In this document: positions 5,553-22,253 of the stretch, piece by piece
How the letters are laid out: each line of letters starts with the position of its first letter
Numbering within the stretch: the stretch's first letter is position 1
Origin: Planctomycetota bacterium
Lineage (GTDB): Bacteria; Planctomycetota; Phycisphaerae; Phycisphaerales; UBA1924
Length of the DNA: 64,000 nt
Direction of reading: 5' to 3'
NCBI GenBank assembly: GCA_033763975.1
Contig: JANRJM010000001.1
Location: 124,001-188,000 of the forward strand
Made by a program: the position numbers and the translations under genes
The notes under the pieces: generated by a model
The model's database searches: none
Told to the model about the DNA's origin: nothing
The model's input: the letters and a program-made list of their open reading frames with translations, nothing else

Positions 5553-6080
5553 ATGAAATACCAGCATGTTGCAGCCTGTGCCGTTGTCGCCGCCGCGTCC
5601 ATCTTCGCCCGGGGCGTGGCCGCCCCGCAGCCCGGCGCGCAGGGCGCGCCCGCGCACGCCACGTCGGCCGCTTCCAAGCCCGTGCTCACGCTCGACGGCG
5701 CCCAACGCGTGCTGGCCGCCGCCGTCGCCGAGGCCCGCGCGAAGCACGCCGGCGGCGCGATCGCCGTGGTCGACGACGGCGGGCACCTGATCGTCTTCCA
5801 GCGGCTGGACGCCACGTTCCCCGCGGGCGCCGAGGTCTCGATCGGCAAGGCCCGCACCGCCGCCACCTTCCGCAAGCCCACCAAGGCCTTCGAAGACGCG
5901 CTCAACGCCGGGCGCTTCGCCCTCGCGGGCGTGCAGCAGATGACCCCGCTGCAGGGGGGCATCCCCATCGTCATCGACGGGCACGTCGTCGGCGGCATCG
6001 GCGTCAGCGGCGCGCACAGCCAGGCCGAGGACGAGCAGATCGCCATCGCGGGCGCCGCCGCGGCCTCGACCGCGCCGTAG
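5553..6080 (+). CDS. GlcG/HbpS-family exported protein
   Basis: A 175-residue protein with a signal peptide (MKYQHVAACAVVAAASIFARG) and one GlcG/HbpS domain from about residue 48. Diagnostic segments are GGAIAVVDDGGHLIVFQRLDATFPAG and the C-terminal GGIPIVIDGHVVGGIGVSGAHSQAEDEQIA. Family members include haem-binding HbpS and small proteins encoded beside glycolate, propanediol or alcohol oxidation genes; some act as redox sensors. Export suggests a periplasmic role beside the neighbouring dehydrogenase and YHS lipoprotein. AGAGGA lies just before the ATG. The 122-nt spacer from the glucosidase gene could contain its own promoter. Haem binding is family knowledge and is not shown by the sequence. 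Confidence 0.85.
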   Translation: MKYQHVAACAVVAAASIFARGVAAPQPGAQGAPAHATSAASKPVLTLDGAQRVLAAAVAEARAKHAGGAIAVVDDGGHLIVFQRLDATFPAGAEVSIGKARTAATFRKPTKAFEDALNAGRFALAGVQQMTPLQGGIPIVIDGHVVGGIGVSGAHSQAEDEQIAIAGAAAASTAP

Positions 6081-6174
6081 CGCTCCCGCGCGCCTCCGTC
6101 CGCTCGTGCCGCGTCGTGCGTCGACGCGTTGTCCGAATCATCGTGTGCCACCGAACCCGTCTCAGGAGAGTGTT

Positions 6175-7080
6175 ATGTCCGCGTCCGTGTTCCCCCGCAT
6201 CGTGCTCGTCCCGTGTCTGGCGTTGCTCGCCCTCGCTCCCGCGTGCGCGCGTCATGGCCGCTGCGTCGGCATCGACGACCCGACGCTCGCCCACCAGCGT
6301 GTGCTCGTGAACCTGGACAACGCCGGCGCCGCCATCGCCGGGCACGACCCGGTCGCGTACTTCACCGACGCCAAGCCGGTGAAGGGCGATCCGACGATCC
6401 GCTCGACGCACGCCGGGGCGCTCTACTACTTCGCCTCGCTCGAGCACAAGCGGATGTTCGACGCGAACCCCGCCAAGTACGAGCCGGAGTTCGGGGGCTA
6501 CTGCGCCTACGCCGCCTCGATCAACACGATCTCCCCCATCGACCCCAACTACTGGGAGATCGTCGACGGACGGCTCATCCTCCAGCACAACCAGCGCGCC
6601 TGGGACGCCTGGAAGAAGGACCCCGCGGGCAACCTCGTGAAGGCCGACAAGAACTGGCCCGGGCTCGTCGAGCGCAACGGCACGCCGCCCCGGGCGCTGC
6701 TCAACGTCGACCCCGCCGGCCTGGCGCTCGAGGGCTACGACCCCACCGCGTACATCCTCGACGGCAAGCCCCGCAAGGGCGACCCCGCGCTCGCGCGCTC
6801 CTTCCAGGGCGCCATGTACTACTTCGTCCACGCCGAGCACAAGAACGCCTTCGAGAAAGACCCCGCACGCTTCGTGCCGCAGTTCGGCGGGTTCTGCGGC
6901 TACGCCGCCTCGATCAACAAGGTCTCGCCCGTCAACCCCGAGATCTGGCAGATCGTCGACGGGCGCGTCGTGCTCCAGCACACCCCCGAGGCCTACCGCC
7001 TGTTCAACGAGAACGTCCGCGGCAACTACGCCAAAGCCGAGAAGAACTGGCCCGGCCTTTCCAGCCGGCGCTGCCGCTAA
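6175..7080 (+). CDS. Lipoprotein with tandem YHS domains
   Basis: A 301-residue protein with a lipoprotein signal (lipobox LAPAC, Cys near residue 24) and two copies of a YHS-type domain. Copy 1 (about 48-160) reads GHDPVAYFTDAKPVKGD...YYFASLEHKRMFDANPAKY...FGGYCAYA. Copy 2 (about 180-290) reads GYDPTAYILDGKPRKGD...YYFVHAEHKNAFEKDPARF...FGGFCGYA. Each repeat finishes with WEIVDGR or WQIVDGR and KNWPGL, so this is a clear internal duplication. Related YHS proteins are linked to metal, often copper, handling. ATG 6175 is chosen because AGGAGAG lies 4 nt upstream. An anchored periplasmic metal- or redox-related role in the cassette is inferred. Confidence 0.85.
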   Translation: MSASVFPRIVLVPCLALLALAPACARHGRCVGIDDPTLAHQRVLVNLDNAGAAIAGHDPVAYFTDAKPVKGDPTIRSTHAGALYYFASLEHKRMFDANPAKYEPEFGGYCAYAASINTISPIDPNYWEIVDGRLILQHNQRAWDAWKKDPAGNLVKADKNWPGLVERNGTPPRALLNVDPAGLALEGYDPTAYILDGKPRKGDPALARSFQGAMYYFVHAEHKNAFEKDPARFVPQFGGFCGYAASINKVSPVNPEIWQIVDGRVVLQHTPEAYRLFNENVRGNYAKAEKNWPGLSSRRCR

Positions 7081-9493: not shown

Positions 9494-9585
9494 CAGTGGA
9501 TCAAAGGAATAGCAAGTCAGATATTCGTTTGCAATCGGAACTGCGGCAGGACCGCGGCCCCTCACAAGAGGGAGAGGAGCACCGG

Positions 9586-12003
9586 ATGTCAGCGACGTCG
9601 ATCGGAACGCGGCCGCAGGGGCGCATGGCAGGGCTGGGGCCGGCGAGCGAGGCCGGCCCGCTCGAGCGGGTCGTCTATGACGACGCGATCGTCCGGCTGT
9701 TCGTGGTCGCCACGATGGTCTGGGGCCTGGTCGCGACGCTGGCCGGCGTGTTCATCGCGATCCAGATGGCCTTCCCCGCCGCGAACATGGGCGTGGAGTG
9801 GCTGAGCTTCGGGCGCCTGCGTCCGCTGCACACCAACGCCGCGATCTTCGCCTTCGCCGGCAACGCCATCTTCGCCGCGATCTACTACTCCACCCAGCGC
9901 CTGTGCAAGACGCGAATGTACTCCGACACGCTCAGCCGCCTGCACTTCTGGGGGTGGCAGGCGATCATCGTGTGCGCGGCCCTCACCCTCCCGCTGGGCA
10001 TCACGCAGAGCAAGGAGTACGCCGAGCTCGAGTGGCCGATCGACCTGCTCATCGCCGTGGTCTGGCTCGGGTTCTTCGGGGGCAACTTCTTCGGCACCCT
10101 CGCCATCCGGCGCGAGCGCCACATGTACGTCGCCCTGTGGTTCTACATCGCGACGATCGTCACCGTCACGATCCTTCACGTCTTCAACAACCTGAGCCTC
10201 CCGCTCGCGGTGGTCGAGCTGGTCGAGACCGGGCGCTGGCCGCGGGGCTCGGAATGGATGAAGAGCTGGCCCGTGTACGCGGGCGTGCAGGACGCGTTCA
10301 TGCAGTGGTGGTACGGGCACAACGCGGTGGCGTTCTTCCTGACCACGCCGTTCCTGGGGCTGATGTACTACTTCATGCCCAAGGCCGCCGAGCGCCCGGT
10401 GTACTCCTACCGCCTGTCCATCGTGCACTTCTGGTCGCTGGTGTTCATCTACATCTGGGCCGGCCCGCACCACCTGCACTACACGGCCCTCCCGCACTGG
10501 GCCTCGTCGCTGGGCATGATCTTCTCCGTCATGCTCTGGATGCCCAGCTGGGGCGGGATGATCAACGGGCTGCTCACCCTCCGCGGCGCCTGGCACAAGG
10601 TCACCGCCGATCCGATCCTCAAGTTCTTCGTCGTCGGCGTGACGTTCTACGGCATGTCCACCTTCGAGGGCCCGATGCTCAGCGTCAAGAGCGTCAACGC
10701 CCTCTCGCACTACACCGACTGGACCATCGCCCACGTCCACGCCGGCGCCCTCGGCTGGAACGGCTTCCTCACCTTCGGCATGATCTACTGGCTCCTCCCG
10801 CGGCTCTTCCAGACCAAGCTCTGGAGCGCCCGCTGGATGAACCTCCACTTCTGGGTTGCCACCATCGGCATCCTTCTCTACATCCTCGCCATCTACACCG
10901 CCGGCATCACCCAGGGCCTGATGTGGCGTGCCTTCGACGTCTCCGGACGCCTCCAGTACCCCGACTTCGTCGAGACCGTCGCCCAGCTCATGCCCTTCTA
11001 CTGGATCCGCGTCGTCGGCGGGCTGCTCTACGTCGCCGGCGTCGTCATGCTCGGCGTCAACGCCATCCAGACCTGGCGCGCCCGACCGGCGACCTTCGCC
11101 GAGGAAGTCCACGAGTTCCCCGCTCTTGACCGGCGGTACGAGGACGCGCCCATCCCCGAATCGCGCCTCACCAGCAATCTCAACCTCGGGCGCGACGTCG
11201 AAGCCAAGATCATCCAGGGCTGGTTCCACCGCGTCTGGGAGCGCAAGCCCTTCAAGTTCACGGCGTGGGTCGTGGCGGCGGTCGGCGTCGCGTCGCTCTT
11301 CGAGATCATCCCGACCTTCCTCATCCGCTCCAACGTCCCGTCGATCGCCAGCGTGCAGCCCTACACCCCGCTCGAGCTCTACGGGCGCGACATCTACATC
11401 GCCGAGGGCTGCTACAACTGCCACTCGCAGATGATCCGCCCGCTGTGGCACGAGACCGTCCGCTACGGCGAGTACAGCAAGCCCGGCGAGTTTGTCTACG
11501 ACCGGCCCTTCCAGTGGGGCAGCCGGCGCATCGGCCCGGACCTCGCCCGCGAGGGCGGGCGCCAGAGCCACGACTGGCACGTTCGCCACTTCGAGAACCC
11601 GCGCCAACTCATCCCCACCTCGGTCATGCCCTCGTACGGGCACCTGCTCACGCAGGACATCGACTGGGGCACCATCCAGGGACGCGTCGACGCGATGGCG
11701 ATGCTGGGCGTGCCGTACGCCGACGCCGTCCGCCAGGGCAAGGCCGCCGAAATCGCCCGGGCGCAGGCCGTGGAGATCGCCGACAACCTCGCGAAGCAGG
11801 GCGGGTACACCAACATGCAGGACAAGAAGGTCATCGCGCTCGTCGCGTACCTGCAGCGTCTGGGCACCGACCTCAACAAGCCCCCGCCCGACGCGGCGCC
11901 CACCGGCACGACGACCACCACCACCACCCCGACGGGCGCGCCGACATCAGGCGCCGCGCCGACGAGCGATCACCCGGCCGTCGCGGCCACGGGAGGGAAC
12001 TGA
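9586..12003 (+). CDS. ccoNO: Fused cbb3 oxidase subunits I and II (CcoN-CcoO)
   Basis: An 805-residue fusion of the catalytic subunit and the mono-haem cytochrome c subunit of a cbb3 oxidase, an inner-membrane enzyme reducing O2 to water and pumping protons. The CcoN part (about 25-520) has the haem and CuB ligands: H82 (LHTNAA), H245 (WYGHNA), H295/H296 (GPHHLHY), H383 and H385 (HVHAGALGWNG). The CcoO part starts near 560 with a membrane anchor and has haem motif CYNCH at 609-613, with Met in SVMPSYGH as likely sixth ligand. A Thr-rich tail follows. ATG 9586 is chosen for the upstream GGGAGAGGAG site. First gene of a tightly packed nine-gene operon divergent from an Rrf2 regulator. Confidence 0.95.
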   Translation: MSATSIGTRPQGRMAGLGPASEAGPLERVVYDDAIVRLFVVATMVWGLVATLAGVFIAIQMAFPAANMGVEWLSFGRLRPLHTNAAIFAFAGNAIFAAIYYSTQRLCKTRMYSDTLSRLHFWGWQAIIVCAALTLPLGITQSKEYAELEWPIDLLIAVVWLGFFGGNFFGTLAIRRERHMYVALWFYIATIVTVTILHVFNNLSLPLAVVELVETGRWPRGSEWMKSWPVYAGVQDAFMQWWYGHNAVAFFLTTPFLGLMYYFMPKAAERPVYSYRLSIVHFWSLVFIYIWAGPHHLHYTALPHWASSLGMIFSVMLWMPSWGGMINGLLTLRGAWHKVTADPILKFFVVGVTFYGMSTFEGPMLSVKSVNALSHYTDWTIAHVHAGALGWNGFLTFGMIYWLLPRLFQTKLWSARWMNLHFWVATIGILLYILAIYTAGITQGLMWRAFDVSGRLQYPDFVETVAQLMPFYWIRVVGGLLYVAGVVMLGVNAIQTWRARPATFAEEVHEFPALDRRYEDAPIPESRLTSNLNLGRDVEAKIIQGWFHRVWERKPFKFTAWVVAAVGVASLFEIIPTFLIRSNVPSIASVQPYTPLELYGRDIYIAEGCYNCHSQMIRPLWHETVRYGEYSKPGEFVYDRPFQWGSRRIGPDLAREGGRQSHDWHVRHFENPRQLIPTSVMPSYGHLLTQDIDWGTIQGRVDAMAMLGVPYADAVRQGKAAEIARAQAVEIADNLAKQGGYTNMQDKKVIALVAYLQRLGTDLNKPPPDAAPTGTTTTTTTPTGAPTSGAAPTSDHPAVAATGGN

Positions 12004-12006
12004 GCC

Positions 12007-12213
12007 ATGCGACTCAGCGACATCATGGGAAGCCTCGACCTGTCCATCTGGCCGCAGCTCGCGCTGGGCATCTTCCTCGTCGTGTTCGCCGCCGTCATCA
12101 CGCGCGTGTACCGGCGCGACCGTCGTCGCGAGTACGACGCGGCGGCCCGAATCCCGCTCGAATCCGGGGTCGTCACGCCCCGCACCGTTCAGCCGAAGGG
12201 GACCGATCAATGA
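12007..12213 (+). CDS. ccoQ: cbb3 oxidase small subunit CcoQ
   Basis: A 68-residue protein with one membrane helix (about 13-33) followed by a basic RVYRRDRRREYD stretch, the shape of CcoQ. CcoQ stabilises the cbb3 complex and is not catalytic. It begins 3 nt after the ccoNO stop, and its own TGA overlaps the ATG of ccoP. Function rests on position, size and topology, since CcoQ sequences are poorly conserved. Confidence 0.82.
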   Translation: MRLSDIMGSLDLSIWPQLALGIFLVVFAAVITRVYRRDRRREYDAAARIPLESGVVTPRTVQPKGTDQ

Positions 12214-12836
12214 CCCAGATGACCTCCGACTCACGGGACCAGGGCGGCGACGTGTCGCCCAGAATCACGCGCCCGCGCGACCACCTGCTCGACCACGAGT
12301 ACGACGGCATCCGCGAGTTCGACAACCCGACCCCCGGCTGGTGGCACCTCATCTTCCTCGGCTCGGTCGTCTTCTCCATCTTCTACTTCGTCTTCTGGCA
12401 GTTCAGCCCGCTCGCCTACACCCCGCAGGAGGCCTGGGCCGCGAAGCAGAACGCCGAGACCATGCGCCTCTTCGCCAACGTCGGTGACATCAAGCCCGAC
12501 CAGGACGGCATCCTCACCCTCATGCGCGACGACAAGCTCATGGCGTACGCCCAGGGCATGTTCCAGGGCAACTGCGCCCAGTGCCACGCGAAGGACGGCG
12601 GGGGCATCAACGGCACCAACCTCACCGACGACCACTACAAGAACGTCAAGGCCCTCCCCGACCTCTTCGCCGTCATCACCGCCGGTGCCGCCAACGGCGC
12701 CATGCCCGCGTGGCGCAACAACTTCTCCGAGAAGGAGCGCGTGCTCCTCGCGGCGTACGCGGCCCGACTCCGCGGCACCACGCCCGCCAACGCCCGCCAG
12801 GCCGAGGGCGAGGCAATCGCGCCCTGGCCCCGCTAG
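12210..12836 (+). CDS. ccoP: cbb3 oxidase cytochrome c subunit CcoP, single-haem form
   Basis: A 208-residue subunit III. The N-terminal CcoP/FixP domain is plain: DHEYDGIREFDNPTPGWW, then one membrane helix (LIFLGSVVFSIFYFVFW). Only one haem c motif follows, CAQCH at 122-126, with Met in NGAMPAW as probable sixth ligand. Typical CcoP is about 300 residues with two haems, so this version has lost one cytochrome domain. It transfers electrons toward the CcoN-CcoO core. The start overlaps the ccoQ stop by ATGA, and ccoG follows after 21 nt. Confidence 0.92.
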   Translation: MTQMTSDSRDQGGDVSPRITRPRDHLLDHEYDGIREFDNPTPGWWHLIFLGSVVFSIFYFVFWQFSPLAYTPQEAWAAKQNAETMRLFANVGDIKPDQDGILTLMRDDKLMAYAQGMFQGNCAQCHAKDGGGINGTNLTDDHYKNVKALPDLFAVITAGAANGAMPAWRNNFSEKERVLLAAYAARLRGTTPANARQAEGEAIAPWPR

Positions 12837-12857
12837 TTCACCCGCACGGAGGCTCCC

Positions 12858-14426
12858 ATGACCGCCCTGCCCGTCACGCACGCACACCCGGACGCAACGC
12901 AGGCGATGCCGATCGCCGCGGGCGAGACGGGTACCAGGGCGCCCTCCACGCTCTCGACGCTGAATGACGACGGCAGCCGTCGCTGGCTGAAGCCCAAACT
13001 CAGCCCCGGGCGATTCCTGAGCCGCCGTCGCGCCGTCGCCTACGCGCTCATCGCGCTCTTCACCGCCATCCCGCACACCACGATCAACGGCTGGCCGGCC
13101 ATCCTGCTCGACCTGAGCGCCCGGCGGTTCCACATCCTGGGCCAGACCTTTCTGCCCACCGACACGCTGCTGCTCGCGTTCCTGCTCGTCGGCATCTTCC
13201 TCACCATCTTCCTGCTCACCGCGCTCTTCGGGCGCGTGTGGTGCGGGTGGGCGTGCCCGCAGACGGTCTACATGGAGTTCGTGTTCCGCCCGATCGAGCG
13301 CCTCTTCGACGGCGCGCCCGGGCGGGCCATCAAGAACAAGTTCCAGGGAACCGGCCCGGCGCGCACGCTGAAGTACGTCGCGTTCTTCCTCGTCGCGTGC
13401 TACCTCGCGCACACCTTCCTGGCCTACTTCGTCGGGGTCGAGCGGCTCAGCGAGTGGGTGACGCAATCGCCCCTCAGGCACCCCGGGCCGTTCCTCGTCA
13501 TGGCCGTCGTCACCGGGCTCATGCTCTTCGACTTCACGTTCTTCCGCGAGCAGACGTGCCTGGTGGCCTGCCCGTACGGGCGCTTCCAGTCCGTCATGCT
13601 CGACCGGCACTCGCTCATCGTGAGCTACGACCCCGTGCGGGGCGAGCCCCGGGGCAAGGCGAGCGCCAAGCGGGCCGCCGCCACCGACCGCGCCGACCTC
13701 GCGCTGCCGGTGCTCGCGGGCGAGGCCCGGCGCACGGGCGACTGCGTCGACTGCAAGCTCTGCGTCGTCACGTGCCCCACGGGCATCGACATCCGCAACG
13801 GGCTGCAGATGGAGTGCATCAACTGCACGCAGTGCATCGACGCGTGCGACGCGGTGATGACCAAGCTGGGCCGCCCGCGCGGGCTCATCCGCTACACGTC
13901 CCAGGCCGCCGTCTCGGGCGGAACGTACCGCATGATCCGCCCGCGCGTGGTGATCTACGCGACCGTGCTCGCGGGGGTCGTGACGGCGTTCCTCATCACC
14001 CTGCTCGGGGCGGCCTCCGCCGACGTCAGCGTGTTGCGCGGGCGCGGCGCCCCGTTCGTGCAGGTCGACCCCGGCACCGTCGCCAACCAGGTGCGCGTGA
14101 AGATCGCGAACCGCTCGGCCCAGGCGACGACGTTCACCTTCGACGCCGCCGCCGTCGCCGGCGCGCCGGGCGTCTCCATCCGCGCCGAAGACCACCCCGT
14201 CCGCGTCGAGGCGGGCGAAGTCCGCACCGTCCCGGCGCAGATCCTGGTGCCCGTCGGCGCGTTCGTCCGCGGCACGCTCGACGTGCACGTCCTGGTCTCC
14301 GATGGCCAGGGCTTCAGCACCCGCGTGCCGTTCCGCGTCGTCGGCCCCGCCGGAGGACAGGCCCCCGGCGTTGCCGCGCCCGCGCAGCCGGCCCCGCCCA
14401 CACCCGACACCGGAGGCACGCCATGA
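12858..14426 (+). CDS. ccoG: Cytochrome oxidase accessory protein CcoG (FixG/RdxA)
   Basis: A 522-residue membrane polyferredoxin needed for cbb3 maturation, thought to reduce copper for CuB insertion. It has several membrane helices, the RVWCGWACPQTVYMEFVF block, and two [4Fe-4S] motifs: C296, C299, C302, C306 and C320, C323, C326, C330. Residues from about 385 form the periplasmic Ig-like FixG C-terminal domain. The tail is Pro/Ala-rich. GGAGG precedes the ATG. The stop overlaps the start of the FixH-like gene by 4 nt. Confidence 0.94.
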   Translation: MTALPVTHAHPDATQAMPIAAGETGTRAPSTLSTLNDDGSRRWLKPKLSPGRFLSRRRAVAYALIALFTAIPHTTINGWPAILLDLSARRFHILGQTFLPTDTLLLAFLLVGIFLTIFLLTALFGRVWCGWACPQTVYMEFVFRPIERLFDGAPGRAIKNKFQGTGPARTLKYVAFFLVACYLAHTFLAYFVGVERLSEWVTQSPLRHPGPFLVMAVVTGLMLFDFTFFREQTCLVACPYGRFQSVMLDRHSLIVSYDPVRGEPRGKASAKRAAATDRADLALPVLAGEARRTGDCVDCKLCVVTCPTGIDIRNGLQMECINCTQCIDACDAVMTKLGRPRGLIRYTSQAAVSGGTYRMIRPRVVIYATVLAGVVTAFLITLLGAASADVSVLRGRGAPFVQVDPGTVANQVRVKIANRSAQATTFTFDAAAVAGAPGVSIRAEDHPVRVEAGEVRTVPAQILVPVGAFVRGTLDVHVLVSDGQGFSTRVPFRVVGPAGGQAPGVAAPAQPAPPTPDTGGTP

Positions 14427-14911
14427 AATCTCTCGCCCTCAAGCCCGGCCAGGGCTGGCCCATCGCCATCGTGGGGCTGCTGCTGGGAAACATGGCGATC
14501 GTCGGCGTGACGGTGTACTTCGCCGCCCGCACGCGCACCAGCGACGTCGTGCCCGACTACTACGCCAAGGCCCTGCACTGGGACGACACCGCCCGCCAGC
14601 ACGCCGCCAACCGCGCGCTCGGCTGGACGCTCGATGTCTCGTTCGCGTCCGTCGACGACGCGACGTCGCGCGTGCGTCTGCGCCTCACCGACGGCGCGGG
14701 CGACCCCATCCGGGCCGCGACCATCGATCTCGAGGCGTTCCACCAGGCCGACCCCGGTGCGCGCCACACCATCACGCTGGTCTCGCGCCACGACGGCACG
14801 TACGAGGGCGTGCTCGAGAGCTCCCGCCCCGGGCGCTGGCGCGTCCACGCCATCGCCGACGCCGTCGGCATGCGATTCACCAGCGAGCAGCAGGTCGACT
14901 TCGGCATCTAG
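14423..14911 (+). CDS. ccoH: FixH-family membrane protein
   Basis: A 162-residue protein with one N-terminal membrane helix (GWPIAIVGLLLGNMAIVGVTVYF) and a periplasmic beta-rich domain, matching FixH/CcoH. The segment DVVPDYYAKALHWDD after the helix is the usual family signature. FixH/CcoH assists assembly of cbb3 oxidase and copper delivery. Placement between ccoG and a SafE-like gene, with an ATGA overlap upstream and 5 nt downstream, is the standard cco assembly order. Confidence 0.85.
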   Translation: MKSLALKPGQGWPIAIVGLLLGNMAIVGVTVYFAARTRTSDVVPDYYAKALHWDDTARQHAANRALGWTLDVSFASVDDATSRVRLRLTDGAGDPIRAATIDLEAFHQADPGARHTITLVSRHDGTYEGVLESSRPGRWRVHAIADAVGMRFTSEQQVDFGI

Positions 14912-14916
14912 CACCC

Positions 14917-15633
14917 ATGCTCCCGCTCATCGGCGCCATCCTCGTCGCGAGCCTCCTGGGCAGCCTGCACTGCGCGGGGATGTGCGGCGCGTTCCTCGCC
15001 CTGAGCATCAGCCCGCCCGGCCAGGTCCGCACGCCCTCGTGGCGCCTTCACGCCTCGTACCACCTCGGGCGACTGTGCACGTACCTCACCTTCGGCGTCA
15101 TCGCCGGCGCGCTGGGCGGCGCCCTCGACCTCGCCGGCGACATGGCCGGCATCCAGCAGGCCGCCGCCGTCGGCGCGGGCATCGTCATGGTCGTCTTCGG
15201 CGGCACGTGCGTCGCCGGCGCGTGCGGCGTGCGCCTTCCCCGCGTCCCCGCGCCCCGCGCGCTCGAGTCCGTCGTCGTCCGCGGGCACGCCCTCGCCGAC
15301 CGCTTCGGTCCCTCCGCACGCGCCGTCGTCATCGGCGCGGTCACCACCCTGCTCCCCTGCGGCTGGCTCTACGCCTTCGTCGCCACCGCCGCCGGCACCG
15401 CCCACCCCGCCTCCGGCGCCCTGGCCATGCTCGCCTTCTGGCTCGGCACGCTCCCGGCCCTGGCGGCCCTGGGCATCGGCCTGCAGCGCGGGCTCGGGTC
15501 GTTCCGCAGGATCCTCCCCGTCGCCACCTCGATCATGCTCGTAGGCGTCGGCCTCGCCACGCTCGCGGGGCGCGTTCGATTCATCCAGTCCGACGGCGTT
15601 CGCAGCGAGGTGGTGTGCCATCCCGTCCGCTAG
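14917..15633 (+). CDS. SafE/TauE-like membrane protein of the cbb3 assembly operon
   Basis: A 238-residue polytopic protein of the SafE-like family often found in cco clusters. It opens with LGSLHCAGMCGAF, the conserved His-Cys motif of this branch, and has about six hydrophobic segments. A second Cys-containing block, VTTLLPCGWLYAF, is also typical. The Cys and His residues suggest a role in copper handling for the oxidase rather than sulfite export, but this is inference from context. The stop (15631-15633) lies inside the likely start of ccoI, so translation is probably coupled. Confidence 0.85.
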   Translation: MLPLIGAILVASLLGSLHCAGMCGAFLALSISPPGQVRTPSWRLHASYHLGRLCTYLTFGVIAGALGGALDLAGDMAGIQQAAAVGAGIVMVVFGGTCVAGACGVRLPRVPAPRALESVVVRGHALADRFGPSARAVVIGAVTTLLPCGWLYAFVATAAGTAHPASGALAMLAFWLGTLPALAALGIGLQRGLGSFRRILPVATSIMLVGVGLATLAGRVRFIQSDGVRSEVVCHPVR

Positions 15634-18136
15634 CACCCTCCAACCCCCCGCGCCCCGCCACGCCGCCCCCGACGCCACGCCGGCCGTCTGCGCGCACTGT
15701 GCGCTGCCCGTGCCCCTGGGCCTCGTTCGCCCCGCCGAAGACCGTCAGTTCTGCTGCCAGGGCTGCGAGTCGGCGTACCGCGTGATCCATCAGTGCGGGC
15801 TCGAGCGCTTCTACGCGATCCGCGACCAGGCCGACGGCGCCGCCGCGCCCGCCGGCGCCACCGGACGCACGTTCGCCGAGTTCGACGACGACACCTTCCG
15901 GCGTCTGCACGTGACGCGCACGCCCGACGGGCTCTGCCGCGCCGAGCTCTTCCTGTCGGGCGTGCACTGCGCCGCGTGCGTGTGGCTTGTCGAGCGCCTG
16001 CCCCGCTTCGTGCCCGGCGTGGTCGAGGCCCGCGTCGATCTCGGGCGCGCCCTCGTGCACCTCACGTGGAACGACGAACGCGTCCCCCTCTCGCGCATCG
16101 CCCGCGCGCTCGATTCCATCGGCTACGCGCCCAGCCCCGCGCGCGAGGCCGCCGCCCGCGCCCGCCGGCGCGCCGAGGACCGGCGCCAGCTCGCCCGCCT
16201 CGCCGTCGCCGGCGCCTGCGCCGGCAACGTCATGCTCTTCGCCGTCGCCCTCTACGCGGGCGTCTTCGGCGTCATGGAGCCCGCCCACCGCGAGCTCTTC
16301 CGCTGGGCGAGCATGCTCCTCACCGTCGTGTCGCTCGCGTGGCCGGGGCGCGTCTTCTTCACCAGCGCGCTCGCGGCCCTGCGCGCCCGCGCCCCGCACT
16401 TTGACGTCCCCATCGCCCTCGCGCTGGGCGCGGGCGGGGCGTGGAGCATCTGGTCCACCGTCACCGGCGCGGGCGAGGTCTACTTCGACACCGTGAGCGT
16501 GCTGGTCTTCGCCCTGCTCGTCGGGCGCTTCTTCCAGGCGCGCCAGCAGCGCTCCGCCGCCGACGCCGTCGAACTCCTCTTCTCGCTCACCCCCGCCTCG
16601 GCCCGGCGCGTGCCCGCGGGCGGCGGCGAGCCCGAGGACGTCCCCGTCGAGGCGCTCGCGCCGGGCGACATCGTCGAGGTCCGCGCGGGCGAGTGCCTCC
16701 CCGCCGACGGCGTCGTCACCGCCGGCCATTCCGCCATCGACCAGGGCGTCCTCACCGGCGAGTCGCGCCCGGTCGACATCGCGCCCGGACGCGAGGTCGC
16801 CGCGGGCACGATCAACGTCGGCGCCGCCATCCGCGTGCGGGTCGAGGCGACGGGCGAGGGCACCCGCGTCGCGAAACTCATGCGCCTGGTCGAGGACGGC
16901 GCCCGTCGGCGCGCCCCGATCGTCCGTTTCGCCGACCGCGTCGCCGGCGCGTTCACCGTCGGCATGCTCGCGTTGGCCGTCATCACCTTCGGCGTCTGGC
17001 TCGTGCTCGATCCCCCGCACGCGCTCGACCACGCCGTCGCGCTCCTCGTCGTCACCTGCCCGTGCGCGCTCGGGCTGGCCACGCCCCTGGTCATCACGAT
17101 CGCCATGGGGCGTGCGGCCCGCGGGCGCATGCTCGTGAAGGGCGGCGACTGCCTCCAGCGCCTCTCGACCCCCGGCACCATCCTGCTCGACAAGACCGGC
17201 ACCATCACGCTCGGCGGGCTCGCCCCCGTCGCGTGGGCGGGCGAGGACTTGTGGCGGGCGCCCGTCGCGTCGCTCGAAGCCCACTCCAACCACCCCGTCG
17301 CCGTCGCCCTCCGGCGCGACGTCCCCGCCGAAGACCTCCTCCCCGCGACCGACGTCGTTCACACCGTCGGTGGCGGCATCGAGGGCGTGGTCGGCGGGCA
17401 GCGCGTCGTCGTCGGCTCGCCGGCGTTTGTCCGCGCCCGCACCGCCGCCGCCCGCCCACCGCGCACGCCGGCCGAATCACCCGCCGAGGCAGACCTCGTG
17501 CGCGAACTGAGCGCCTTCGCCGCGCGGGGGCTCACGCCGGTCGCGGTCGCGGTCGACGACGTGCTCGTGGCGGGTGTCGCGCTGGGCGACCGAGTCCGCC
17601 CGGGGAGCGCCGCGGCGATCGGGCAGCTCCGCGCACTCGGCTGGAACGTCCGCATGCTCTCGGGCGATCATCCGGACGTCGCCCAGGCCGTCGGACGCGA
17701 GGTCGGGCTCCTCCCCGCCGACATTCACGCCGGGCTCTCGCCCGAGGACAAGCTCGCGCACGTGCAGTCGCTGGGCGCACGCGGGGGCTGCCCGGTCGTG
17801 ATGGTGGGGGACGGCGTCAACGACGCCGCCGCCCTCGCCGCCGCCGATGTCGGGGTCGCGGTGCACGGCGGGGTGGAGGCGTCTCTGGCCGCGGCGGACG
17901 TGTACCTCGGCACGCCGGGCCTCGCGCCGCTGGTCGAGCTCGTGACCGCGAGCCGTCGCACGATGACCGTCATCCGGCGCAACCTCTGGGTCTCGCTGTT
18001 CTACAACGTCACGGCGGGCACGCTGGCGGTGCTGGGGCTCGTGAACCCGATCGTGGCGGCGCTGGTGATGCCCCTGAGTTCGATCACCGCGCTGTCCGTG
18101 TCGCTGCGGTCGCGCACGTTCGGAGGCCGCCCATGA
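15620..18136 (+). CDS. ccoI: Copper-exporting P1B-type ATPase CcoI (probable AUC start)
   Basis: An 838-residue copper ATPase that feeds copper to cbb3 assembly. Motifs: N-terminal C24-X2-C27 and FCCQGC (44-49), HMA domain with C117-X2-C120, membrane CPC at 480-482, phosphorylation site DKTGT at D524, and GDGVNDAAAL near the end. The reading frame is open from 15545 and contains no ATG, GTG, TTG or CTG before the CTG at 15704, which lies inside the conserved CALPVP segment. ATC 15620 has GAGGTGG 6 nt upstream (15607-15613) and keeps the full Cys-rich start, so I place initiation there. The alternative GTG 15710 would cut off C24 and C27. It overlaps the SafE-like gene by 14 nt. Confidence 0.85.
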   Translation: MPSASTLQPPAPRHAAPDATPAVCAHCALPVPLGLVRPAEDRQFCCQGCESAYRVIHQCGLERFYAIRDQADGAAAPAGATGRTFAEFDDDTFRRLHVTRTPDGLCRAELFLSGVHCAACVWLVERLPRFVPGVVEARVDLGRALVHLTWNDERVPLSRIARALDSIGYAPSPAREAAARARRRAEDRRQLARLAVAGACAGNVMLFAVALYAGVFGVMEPAHRELFRWASMLLTVVSLAWPGRVFFTSALAALRARAPHFDVPIALALGAGGAWSIWSTVTGAGEVYFDTVSVLVFALLVGRFFQARQQRSAADAVELLFSLTPASARRVPAGGGEPEDVPVEALAPGDIVEVRAGECLPADGVVTAGHSAIDQGVLTGESRPVDIAPGREVAAGTINVGAAIRVRVEATGEGTRVAKLMRLVEDGARRRAPIVRFADRVAGAFTVGMLALAVITFGVWLVLDPPHALDHAVALLVVTCPCALGLATPLVITIAMGRAARGRMLVKGGDCLQRLSTPGTILLDKTGTITLGGLAPVAWAGEDLWRAPVASLEAHSNHPVAVALRRDVPAEDLLPATDVVHTVGGGIEGVVGGQRVVVGSPAFVRARTAAARPPRTPAESPAEADLVRELSAFAARGLTPVAVAVDDVLVAGVALGDRVRPGSAAAIGQLRALGWNVRMLSGDHPDVAQAVGREVGLLPADIHAGLSPEDKLAHVQSLGARGGCPVVMVGDGVNDAAALAAADVGVAVHGGVEASLAAADVYLGTPGLAPLVELVTASRRTMTVIRRNLWVSLFYNVTAGTLAVLGLVNPIVAALVMPLSSITALSVSLRSRTFGGRP

Positions 18137-20463: not shown

Positions 20464-21663
20464 ATGCCCACCTCGCCCGCTGCCCGCCTGCCGTTCCGCC
20501 GCTCGATCGCTTCCATCGCCCTTGGTGCCGCGCTGCTCGCCGGAGTTGCGGGCACCCCCGCGATCGCCCAGCCGTCGGCGCCGACGCGCACGATCGACCA
20601 GTGGGACGTTCCCAAGAAGGGCGTCCGTCTCGCCATCGACGGCTACGACCCCGTGTCGTACTTTCCGGAGGGCGGCGGCAAGCCCCTGAAGGGTTCCGCG
20701 CAGTTCGAGCACCTTCACGGCGGCGTCACCTATCGCTTCTCCTCGGCGCAGACCCGCCAGCGCTTCATCGCCGACCCCGCCCGGTACGAGCCCGCCCACG
20801 GCGGCTGGTGCTCCTGGGCAATGATCGACGGCGACAAAACCGAACCCAACCCCAAGAGTTTCATCGTCAAGGATGGCCGCCTCTTCCTGTTCTACGACGG
20901 CCTGCTCGGCGACACGCGCGCGAACTGGCTGAAGGGCGACCACGCGGCCCAGCTCGCCAAGGCCGACGTCGCCTGGAAGAAAATCTCGGGCGAGGAGCCC
21001 CGCATGCCCCGGACGCTCGCCCAGCGTCTCGACGAGCGCCGCGCGGAGTTCGACCGCAAGGCCCCGGTCGAGATGAAGGAGCGCTTCGAGAAGGGCGTCC
21101 GCGACGTCGCGGGCTCGGGCGTGCTGGAGCGCGCGCTCAAAGTCGGATCCACGGCCCCGGACTTCACGCTCAAGAACGCCGCCGGCGCGGACGTGCACCT
21201 GCGCGACCTCCTGGCGAAGGGGCCCGTCGTCCTCACGTGGTACCGCGGCGGATGGTGCCCTTACTGCAGCATCCAGCTCCGCGCGATGCAGGAGGTTCTC
21301 CCCGAACTGACCGCCGCGGGCGCGCACGTCGTCGCCCTCTCGCCCGAGAAGCCCGACGCCACGGCCAAGACCGCCGAGTCGAACCTGCTCGGCTTCACGG
21401 TGCTGTCCGACGCGGGCAACCAGGTCGGCAAGCGCTACGGCGTGGTGTACGAACTCCCCCCGGACCTCGTCCAGGCCCTCAAGGGCGTGCTCGACCTCCC
21501 GACGATCAACGGCACGACCGAGTGGGAACTGCCCATCGCCGCGACGTACGTCATCGACCGCGACGGACGCATCACCTACGCCTTCCTCGACGCCGACTAC
21601 CGCAAGCGGGCCGAGCCCTCGGAGATCATCGACGCGGCCCGTCAGCTCTCGAAGTCCAAGTGA
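20464..21663 (+). CDS. Exported YHS-peroxiredoxin fusion protein
   Basis: A 399-residue exported protein. A signal peptide ends near AIAQP (about 35). A YHS-type domain follows at about 50-150: DGYDPVSYFPEGGGKPLKG, YRFSSAQTRQRFIADPARY, GGWCSW. After a charged helical linker (about 175-225), an AhpC/TSA-type thioredoxin-fold domain runs to the end: VGSTAPDFTLKNAAG, then WCPYC with C265 and C268, and YVIDRDGRITYAF. The CxxC pair suggests a disulfide or peroxide reductase. The YHS part resembles the two YHS domains of the lipoprotein at 6175. The combination points to periplasmic metal or peroxide defence. A GC-rich stem-loop follows the stop. Confidence 0.85.
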   Translation: MPTSPAARLPFRRSIASIALGAALLAGVAGTPAIAQPSAPTRTIDQWDVPKKGVRLAIDGYDPVSYFPEGGGKPLKGSAQFEHLHGGVTYRFSSAQTRQRFIADPARYEPAHGGWCSWAMIDGDKTEPNPKSFIVKDGRLFLFYDGLLGDTRANWLKGDHAAQLAKADVAWKKISGEEPRMPRTLAQRLDERRAEFDRKAPVEMKERFEKGVRDVAGSGVLERALKVGSTAPDFTLKNAAGADVHLRDLLAKGPVVLTWYRGGWCPYCSIQLRAMQEVLPELTAAGAHVVALSPEKPDATAKTAESNLLGFTVLSDAGNQVGKRYGVVYELPPDLVQALKGVLDLPTINGTTEWELPIAATYVIDRDGRITYAFLDADYRKRAEPSEIIDAARQLSKSK

Positions 21664-21697: not shown

Positions 21698-21734
21698 ACG
21701 CTGACTCTCGCCGCGTGCGGGCGTGTGCGCCGCC

Positions 21735-21761
21735 CCACGCGTGGCGTGCGGGACGTCCCGC
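21735..21761. promoter_or_regulatory. Two adjacent palindromes before the DoxX-like gene
   Basis: CCACGCGTGG (21735-21744) and GCGGGACGTCCCGC (21748-21761) are both perfect palindromes separated by 3 bp. They lie 28 bp before the start codon of the DoxX-like gene, a position suited to a repressor. High GC raises the chance of accidental palindromes. Confidence 0.35.
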
Positions 21762-21788
21762 GCGCGCGGCGCACGAGGAGTGTGTCGG

Positions 21789-22253
21789 ATGGCCGAGGGT
21801 GTTCCCGCCGGGCGTGCGCAGTTTGAATGCGCGTGCCGCACGTCGCGTATCGCGTCTTGGGTGCTGCAGGTGCTGGCGGCCGGCATCCTGGCCCAGACGC
21901 TCTTCTTCAAGTTCACGGGCGCGGAGGAATCGCGCTACATCTTCAGCACGCTGGGTGTTGAGCCCTGGGGTCGGTATGCGTCGGGCGTGGTCGAGCTCGT
22001 CGCGGCGGTGCTGCTGCTCGTGCCGCGTGCCGCGCCCATCGGGGCCATGCTGGCGGCGGGCGTGATGGTGGGCGCCATCGGCAGCCACCTGGGCCCGCTG
22101 GGGATCGAGGTCAGGGACGACGGCGGGCTGCTGTTCACGCTCGCCATCCTCGTGATGGCCTCGAGCCTGGGCATCCTGTGGCTGCGGCGGGGCGCCGTGC
22201 GCGCCCTGGTGAAGTGCGTTCTCGCACGCGTGCGGGGCACGCCGGAAAAATGA
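21789..22253 (+). CDS. DoxX-like membrane protein
   Basis: A 154-residue protein with four hydrophobic segments (about 20-38, 60-78, 84-100, 115-133) in the DoxX pattern, including ILAQTLFFKFTGAEE and GVVELVAAVLLLVP. DoxX proteins are small inner-membrane components of redox or quinone-linked systems; the exact role here is unknown. ATG 21789 has AGGAG 8 nt upstream. The stop codon overlaps the 3' end of the opposite-strand tRNA-Val gene. Confidence 0.75.
   Translation: MAEGVPAGRAQFECACRTSRIASWVLQVLAAGILAQTLFFKFTGAEESRYIFSTLGVEPWGRYASGVVELVAAVLLLVPRAAPIGAMLAAGVMVGAIGSHLGPLGIEVRDDGGLLFTLAILVMASSLGILWLRRGAVRALVKCVLARVRGTPEK

Follow-up and report, generated by a model that had tools for sequence, protein, structure and literature searches.

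A conserved, putatively exported fusion of a YHS_seleno domain and a peroxiredoxin-like domain in a family of Planctomycetota

The window (the whole stretch of 64,000 nucleotides analysed here) contains a 399-residue open reading frame (20464–21663, +) in which a putative signal peptide, a YHS_seleno domain, the N-terminal part of a peroxiredoxin-like protein, and an AhpC/TSA domain are joined in this order in a single protein. The frame begins with ATG downstream of a Shine-Dalgarno-like AAGGA, and because the same architecture is found as a single open frame in 13 other genomes, the fusion is not a product of chance. Comparison of these sequences confirms that the predicted exported YHS–peroxiredoxin-like fusion is real and conserved, though narrowly spread.

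The protein contains three cysteines and no others, C116 (20809–20811, +) in the YHS part and C265 (21256–21258, +) and C268 (21265–21267, +) in the WCPYC motif of the peroxiredoxin-like part, and we put at about even the chance that it acts as an exported thiol oxidoreductase with two sites, the C265/C268 pair serving C116. C116, at a position that is apparently selenocysteine (Sec) in some members of its family, would be a reactive thiol that meets an oxidant or substrate outside the cytoplasm and either becomes oxidised or enters a mixed disulfide; the tethered domain with C265-x-x-C268 would reduce C116 through thiol-disulfide exchange, and the resulting C265–C268 disulfide would be recharged by a membrane reductant.

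Architecture and distribution of the fusion

By eye, the N-terminus has a charged n-region and a hydrophobic stretch at about residues 14–30, and the putative signal peptide (residues 1–35; 20464–20568, +) ends with A-I-A before Q36. The YHS_seleno domain (YHS_seleno_dom, NF041384) occupies residues 56–173 (20629–20982, +) with 101.7 bits against a cut-off of 70, and the AhpC-TSA domain (PF00578) residues 227–372 (21142–21579, +) with 104.9 bits against a cut-off of 26. An earlier note on this DNA had described one protein with a signal peptide, a YHS domain, a helical linker, and an AhpC/TSA domain carrying C265 and C268; the fusion, the export-type start, and the CxxC all stand, but the linker (residues 183–222; 21010–21129, +) is part of the peroxiredoxin-like half. 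Of 229 matching plasmid records, the 25 listed all align from query residue 160–185 to 389–399, and unfused peroxiredoxin-like proteins such as those of loci L053–L055 start at about query residue 183, which makes residues ~183–222 the N-terminal portion of the peroxiredoxin-like family. The two domain matches are separated by 15 and 18 residues in fusions L087 and L088, and by 39–55 residues in the other twelve. An AlphaFold model of the fusion (4 sequences) has a mean pLDDT of 40.3, too poor for use, and therefore yields no distance between C116 and C265.

The same note had asked for the fusion to be sought in other genomes, and restriction to a single strain is refuted: at least 14 of 163 genomes of the same family (matches at E <= 1e-30 counted), belonging to nine genera, encode the full fusion as a single open frame (G000, G264, G354, G355, G294, G282, G298, G299, G425, G426, G328, G305, G432, and G307). 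Twelve of these are single matches, and those of G298 and G307 were seen as two pieces and then confirmed as one frame; identity to the window's fusion is 44–57% in the 11 other genomes with a single match. The matches listed include six other genomes of the same genus, and none of these shows the fusion. The class sample of 298 genomes has the fusion in four among the matches listed, all of the same family; the phylum sample of 392 returns only the genome of origin at E <= 1e-40, and none of the 229 matching plasmid records aligns over 80% of the query at a single place. Among the matches listed, these three samples show no fusion from outside the family. Scans of viral contigs for additional relatives found none.

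Both families are widespread in unfused form; in genomes G013, G258, and G273, for example, the two lie on separate contigs. Adjacent unfused YHS and peroxiredoxin-like genes do not occur among the matches listed for the family genomes (E <= 1e-30), which counts against a partnership of the two sites. We also considered a repeated origin of the fusion. A quick tree of the peroxiredoxin-like domains forces at least two changes, but a careful tree, which leaves out seven long-branch rows (L031, L032, L083, L084, the second L112 row, L079, and L080), fails to reject a single origin (AU p 0.42), although the fusions form one clade in 0% of its 200 bootstrap trees; the tree of YHS domains gives no resolution. 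As a single origin is not rejected, recurrence of the fusion is not used here as support.

The YHS_seleno half and the question of metals

The YHS label given earlier is right as to type and can be made more exact: the domain belongs with NF041384, as do those of the five other fusions that were scanned (107–121 bits), and the Pfam YHS profile (PF04945) reaches 17.1 bits, under its gathering score of 30.3. One row of a review table (PMC13188914) gives NF041384 with the Sec motif GxU. GGWC116 fits the G-x-C/U motif, and GxU would correspond to G-W-C116; the window protein thus resembles the NF041384 (seleno)proteins in scoring above the curated cut-off and in the placement of this cysteine, and differs from them in having Cys rather than Sec and in being fused to a peroxiredoxin-like part. 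C116 is the sole conserved cysteine of the YHS half. Among the 56 aligned YHS domains of the fetched loci, the window's own included, its column is Cys in 55, including all 14 fusions, and in none is it Sec, which, with the Sec claim resting on that one table row, argues against the proposed role of C116. A candidate Sec at this position in Planctomycetota was rejected, as in-frame TGA codons in the fetched YHS loci lie only near the end of the domain match (L071 and L075).

YHS domains are generally regarded as metal-binding, and one alternative to a thiol oxidoreductase is a redox protein linked to a metal or metalloid, in which the YHS half is the binding site for copper, iron, or a thiophilic metalloid, and the CxxC either shifts that ligand's redox state or gives protection against it. 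The earlier note had pointed to a lipoprotein at 6175, and the likeness is borne out: the YHS half is 37% (E 2e-21) and 31% (E 3e-16) identical to the two repeats of a lipoprotein-like YHS_seleno gene (6106–7080, +; 238.7 bits with YHS_seleno). This paralogue also passes the Pfam YHS cut-off (40.3 against 30.3), which favours a metal, whereas the fusion falls under it. The inference of a shared metal finds no support in the cysteines: columns 65, 93, and 97, which we take to be the metal-ligand cysteine positions of canonical YHS/TRASH domains, have Cys in 0 of the 56 domains, and 47 of the 56 have one Cys only. We have therefore demoted the shared metal to a rival explanation. Directly upstream of the two-repeat gene is an HbpS/GlcG-like gene (PF03928; the pair spans 5553–7080, +), and the same gene pair recurs in G294 (L077).

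Neighbouring genes bear on the metal question in both directions. Some 2.3 kb of sequence lies between the fusion gene and the end of an upstream cbb3 oxidase cluster (9496–18136, +), which includes a P-type ATPase with an HMA domain and speaks for a metal; the cluster also codes for an 835-residue protein with both COX1 and FixO domains, FixG-type and FixH proteins, and a DsbD_2-type membrane protein. Homologues of this copper-type ATPase (29–32% identity) occur in L103 (1786–3333, −), some 1 kb away from a YHS-alone gene, and in L046, L048, and L049, about 4.5–5 kb from peroxiredoxin-only genes of one genus; these four related loci, none of them a fusion, favour a metal. Against this, LpxI- and TlyA-like genes on the opposite strand separate the fusion from the window's ATPase gene, no homologue of that ATPase is encoded in the flanking sequence available for the 13 other fusions, 16 flanking genes of other fusions were scanned and include no evident metal gene, and P-type ATPases are common, with none beside a fusion in the flanks searched.

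A second link between the two families is found in clusters of arsenosugar type, and it too can be read in more than one way. In G124 (L127 6049–17438) a multi-repeat YHS_seleno gene, an ArsM-like gene, ArsS, and a gene with DUF3179 fused to a peroxiredoxin-like domain lie within about 8 kb; ArsS (TIGR04167) scores above its cut-off, and the ArsM-like methyltransferase scores under its cut-offs. G002 (L128 5756–11802) has the same gene set within about 6 kb, with the DUF3179 part assigned by resemblance only. The DUF3179 fusion (L127/L030 in G124, with a similar frame at L128 in G002) is like the window protein in having the peroxiredoxin-like domain behind another family that contains selenoproteins, and differs in that its partner is DUF3179 and that it adjoins arsenosugar-type genes. 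The sharing of these clusters by YHS_seleno and a peroxiredoxin-like fusion argues for a thiol partnership of the two families, and the joining of YHS_seleno with ArsS and ArsM-like genes argues for a metalloid. The YHS repeats of these clusters have GGDCxxC motifs, and metalloid chemistry is possible in that branch. Taken over the YHS half of the fusion, support for metal binding is weak at best, the evidence points to C116 as a redox site of the Cys/Sec type, and we consider a metal-linked protein unlikely. A 'YHS' annotation alone should not be taken as 'metal-binding' in the YHS_seleno subfamily.

The peroxiredoxin-like half and putative selenocysteine in its relatives

Classical peroxiredoxins have the motif P-x3-T/S-x2-C. 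The AhpC-TSA and Redoxin profiles both score far above their cut-offs on the C-terminal half, and its best PDB matches include the peroxiredoxins 2cx3 and 2ywn; in the alignment to 2cx3, C268 falls on the motif Cys. These features would suit an exported thiol peroxidase in which C268 reduces peroxides, C265 resolves, and the YHS domain is a binding or targeting module only. However, R261 and C265 occupy the positions of the motif Pro and Ser, so that the C-terminal half lacks the classical motif, and retention of C116 in 14 of 14 fusions is unexpected for a plain binding module. The position of the catalytic Arg of classical peroxiredoxins is insecure in the 2cx3 alignment, and alignment to 3hdc, a thioredoxin family protein, matches WCPYC letter for letter. 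Judged from these alignments, the C-terminal half is a peroxiredoxin scaffold with a thioredoxin-type CxxC, peroxidase activity of the fusion is doubtful, and a peroxidase with an accessory YHS domain seems to us an improbable account, on a level with the metal-linked one. The earlier suggestion that the protein couples metal binding to peroxide or disulfide chemistry in the periplasm is thus retained in part: an extracytoplasmic thiol/disulfide role is likeliest, with the metal little supported and peroxide reduction in question on account of R261 and C265.

Affiliation of this half is with the 'peroxiredoxin-like family protein' group, a name borne by 14 of the 25 plasmid matches listed (the others are named otherwise or unannotated); we take these matches to be of the cd02970 type. 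Homology extends along the length of the family, with the N-terminal part, the RGGWCPYC motif, and the C-terminal blocks in common and up to 50.5% identity (a plasmid-borne relative, residues 185–395, tblastn). This half is assigned to the family, from whose plasmid-borne members it would differ in its predicted export and in its placement behind a YHS domain. ResA/TlpA thiol-disulfide oxidoreductases have WCxxC at the equivalent place, and similarity to ResA is significant, but the score of 49.3 bits against a cut-off of 170 (NF002854) makes the protein no member of ResA.

The 56 peroxiredoxin-like domains of the fetched loci, again with the window's own, have Cys at column 265 in 49, an in-frame TGA (read as Sec) in six, and Ser in one; at column 268 there are 55 Cys and a single TGA. 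Retention of all three residues (C116 in 55/56, Cys or Sec at 265 in 55/56, and Cys or Sec at 268 in 56/56) argues for two sites that work together. The six loci with TGA at the C265 column are L053, L054, L055, L122, L079, and L080, the last two being distant relatives of only 32% and 31% identity. At L054 (5523–6167, −) in-frame TGA stands at both cysteine positions, so that the CxxC would read UxxU, in a genome with SelB above the cut-off. Of the 17 genomes tested, seven have SelB above the cut-off. These seven include all three that were tested from the six TGA loci (G239, G166, and G278) and none of the ten from the window's family, the genome of origin included; the Cys forms in this family fit that absence.

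Sec at the N-terminal position of the CxxC in relatives accords with a thioredoxin-type CxxC on a peroxiredoxin scaffold. PMC13188914, in the part available, gives the cd02970 peroxiredoxin-like family with UxxS, and DUF3179 is also counted among selenoprotein families in excerpted literature. TGA at C265 in relatives, together with Sec motifs listed for both halves, argues for C265 and C268 serving C116. A check for a SECIS element counts on the other side: the RNA around one UGA folds no better than shuffled sequences (z −0.04).

Neighbouring genes and a possible extracytoplasmic thiol system

Immediately downstream of the fusion gene is a DoxX_2-like gene (21723–22253, +; likely ATG at 21789) with 37.1 bits against a cut-off of 26.3. 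A DoxX homologue is the next gene downstream on the same strand at four of 12 fusion loci (L001, L039, L091, and L095) and four of 35 YHS-alone loci (L073, L081, L082, and L110), counting loci with 700 or more bases of downstream sequence that were chosen by sequence similarity and not at random; the L095 member is weak (17.7 bits against 26.3 for DoxX_2). DoxX is next to none of 41 peroxiredoxin-only loci, to which no flank-length filter was applied. Maintenance of the fusion across nine genera and the presence of DoxX downstream of both fusion and YHS-alone genes are consistent with reduction of C116 by the tethered domain, and the lack of DoxX beside eight of the 12 fusions weighs against it. 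Eight aligned DoxX proteins have no invariant Cys, so that DoxX is no obvious thiol relay. In the part of PMC10501769 available, which cites Nambi et al. 2015, M. tuberculosis DoxX is described as forming, with SodA and SseA, an oxidoreductase complex associated with the membrane.

Other neighbours are of redox-stress type and are likewise in favour of a two-site thiol role. These include a CMD-family (AhpD-like) gene in L110 and, near the YHS or fusion gene in L073, L091, and L094, an ECF sigma factor gene with a zf-HC2 putative anti-sigma gene, a pair that is possibly a redox-sensing switch. Ten further flanking genes of the fusion loci include nothing recurrent.

Least probable of the alternatives, and in our view very unlikely, is a chance gene fusion retained without functional coupling of its halves, which would suit occurrence in one family among the samples searched, patchy distribution inside it, and variable spacing between the domains (15–18 against 39–55 residues), but nine genera keep the fusion and all three cysteines are intact in the 14 proteins.

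A broader and decidedly speculative reading is that YHS_seleno proteins are metal-free thiol or selenol enzymes, for which WCPYC peroxiredoxin-like proteins are the dedicated reductase, possibly with DoxX as a membrane partner. This would be a third extracytoplasmic thiol system, standing beside those of the DsbA/DsbD and TlpA/ResA types, and through the fusion a function could be assigned to a selenoprotein family so far uncharacterised. The natural joining of the two halves, and apparent Sec at the corresponding Cys in relatives of each, seen as in-frame TGA for the peroxiredoxin-like half and taken from the review's listing for the YHS half, suggest a concrete enzyme–reductase pair.

The open-licence literature searched yields a tested role for neither half, and contains no paper that joins 'YHS domain' with 'DoxX' or 'arsenosugar' with 'YHS'; YHS domains and peroxiredoxins are co-mentioned in selenoprotein papers, which in the portions available do not name the fusion. 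PMC2398784, as excerpted, describes peroxiredoxin-type selenoproteins fused to unknown domains with a conserved Cys, so that fusions of the YHS–peroxiredoxin type have precedents, one of them perhaps related. We also note that in L052 (4051–6543, −) a peroxiredoxin-like domain is followed in the same frame by about 550 residues that by eye resemble a metallopeptidase with a PDZ domain.
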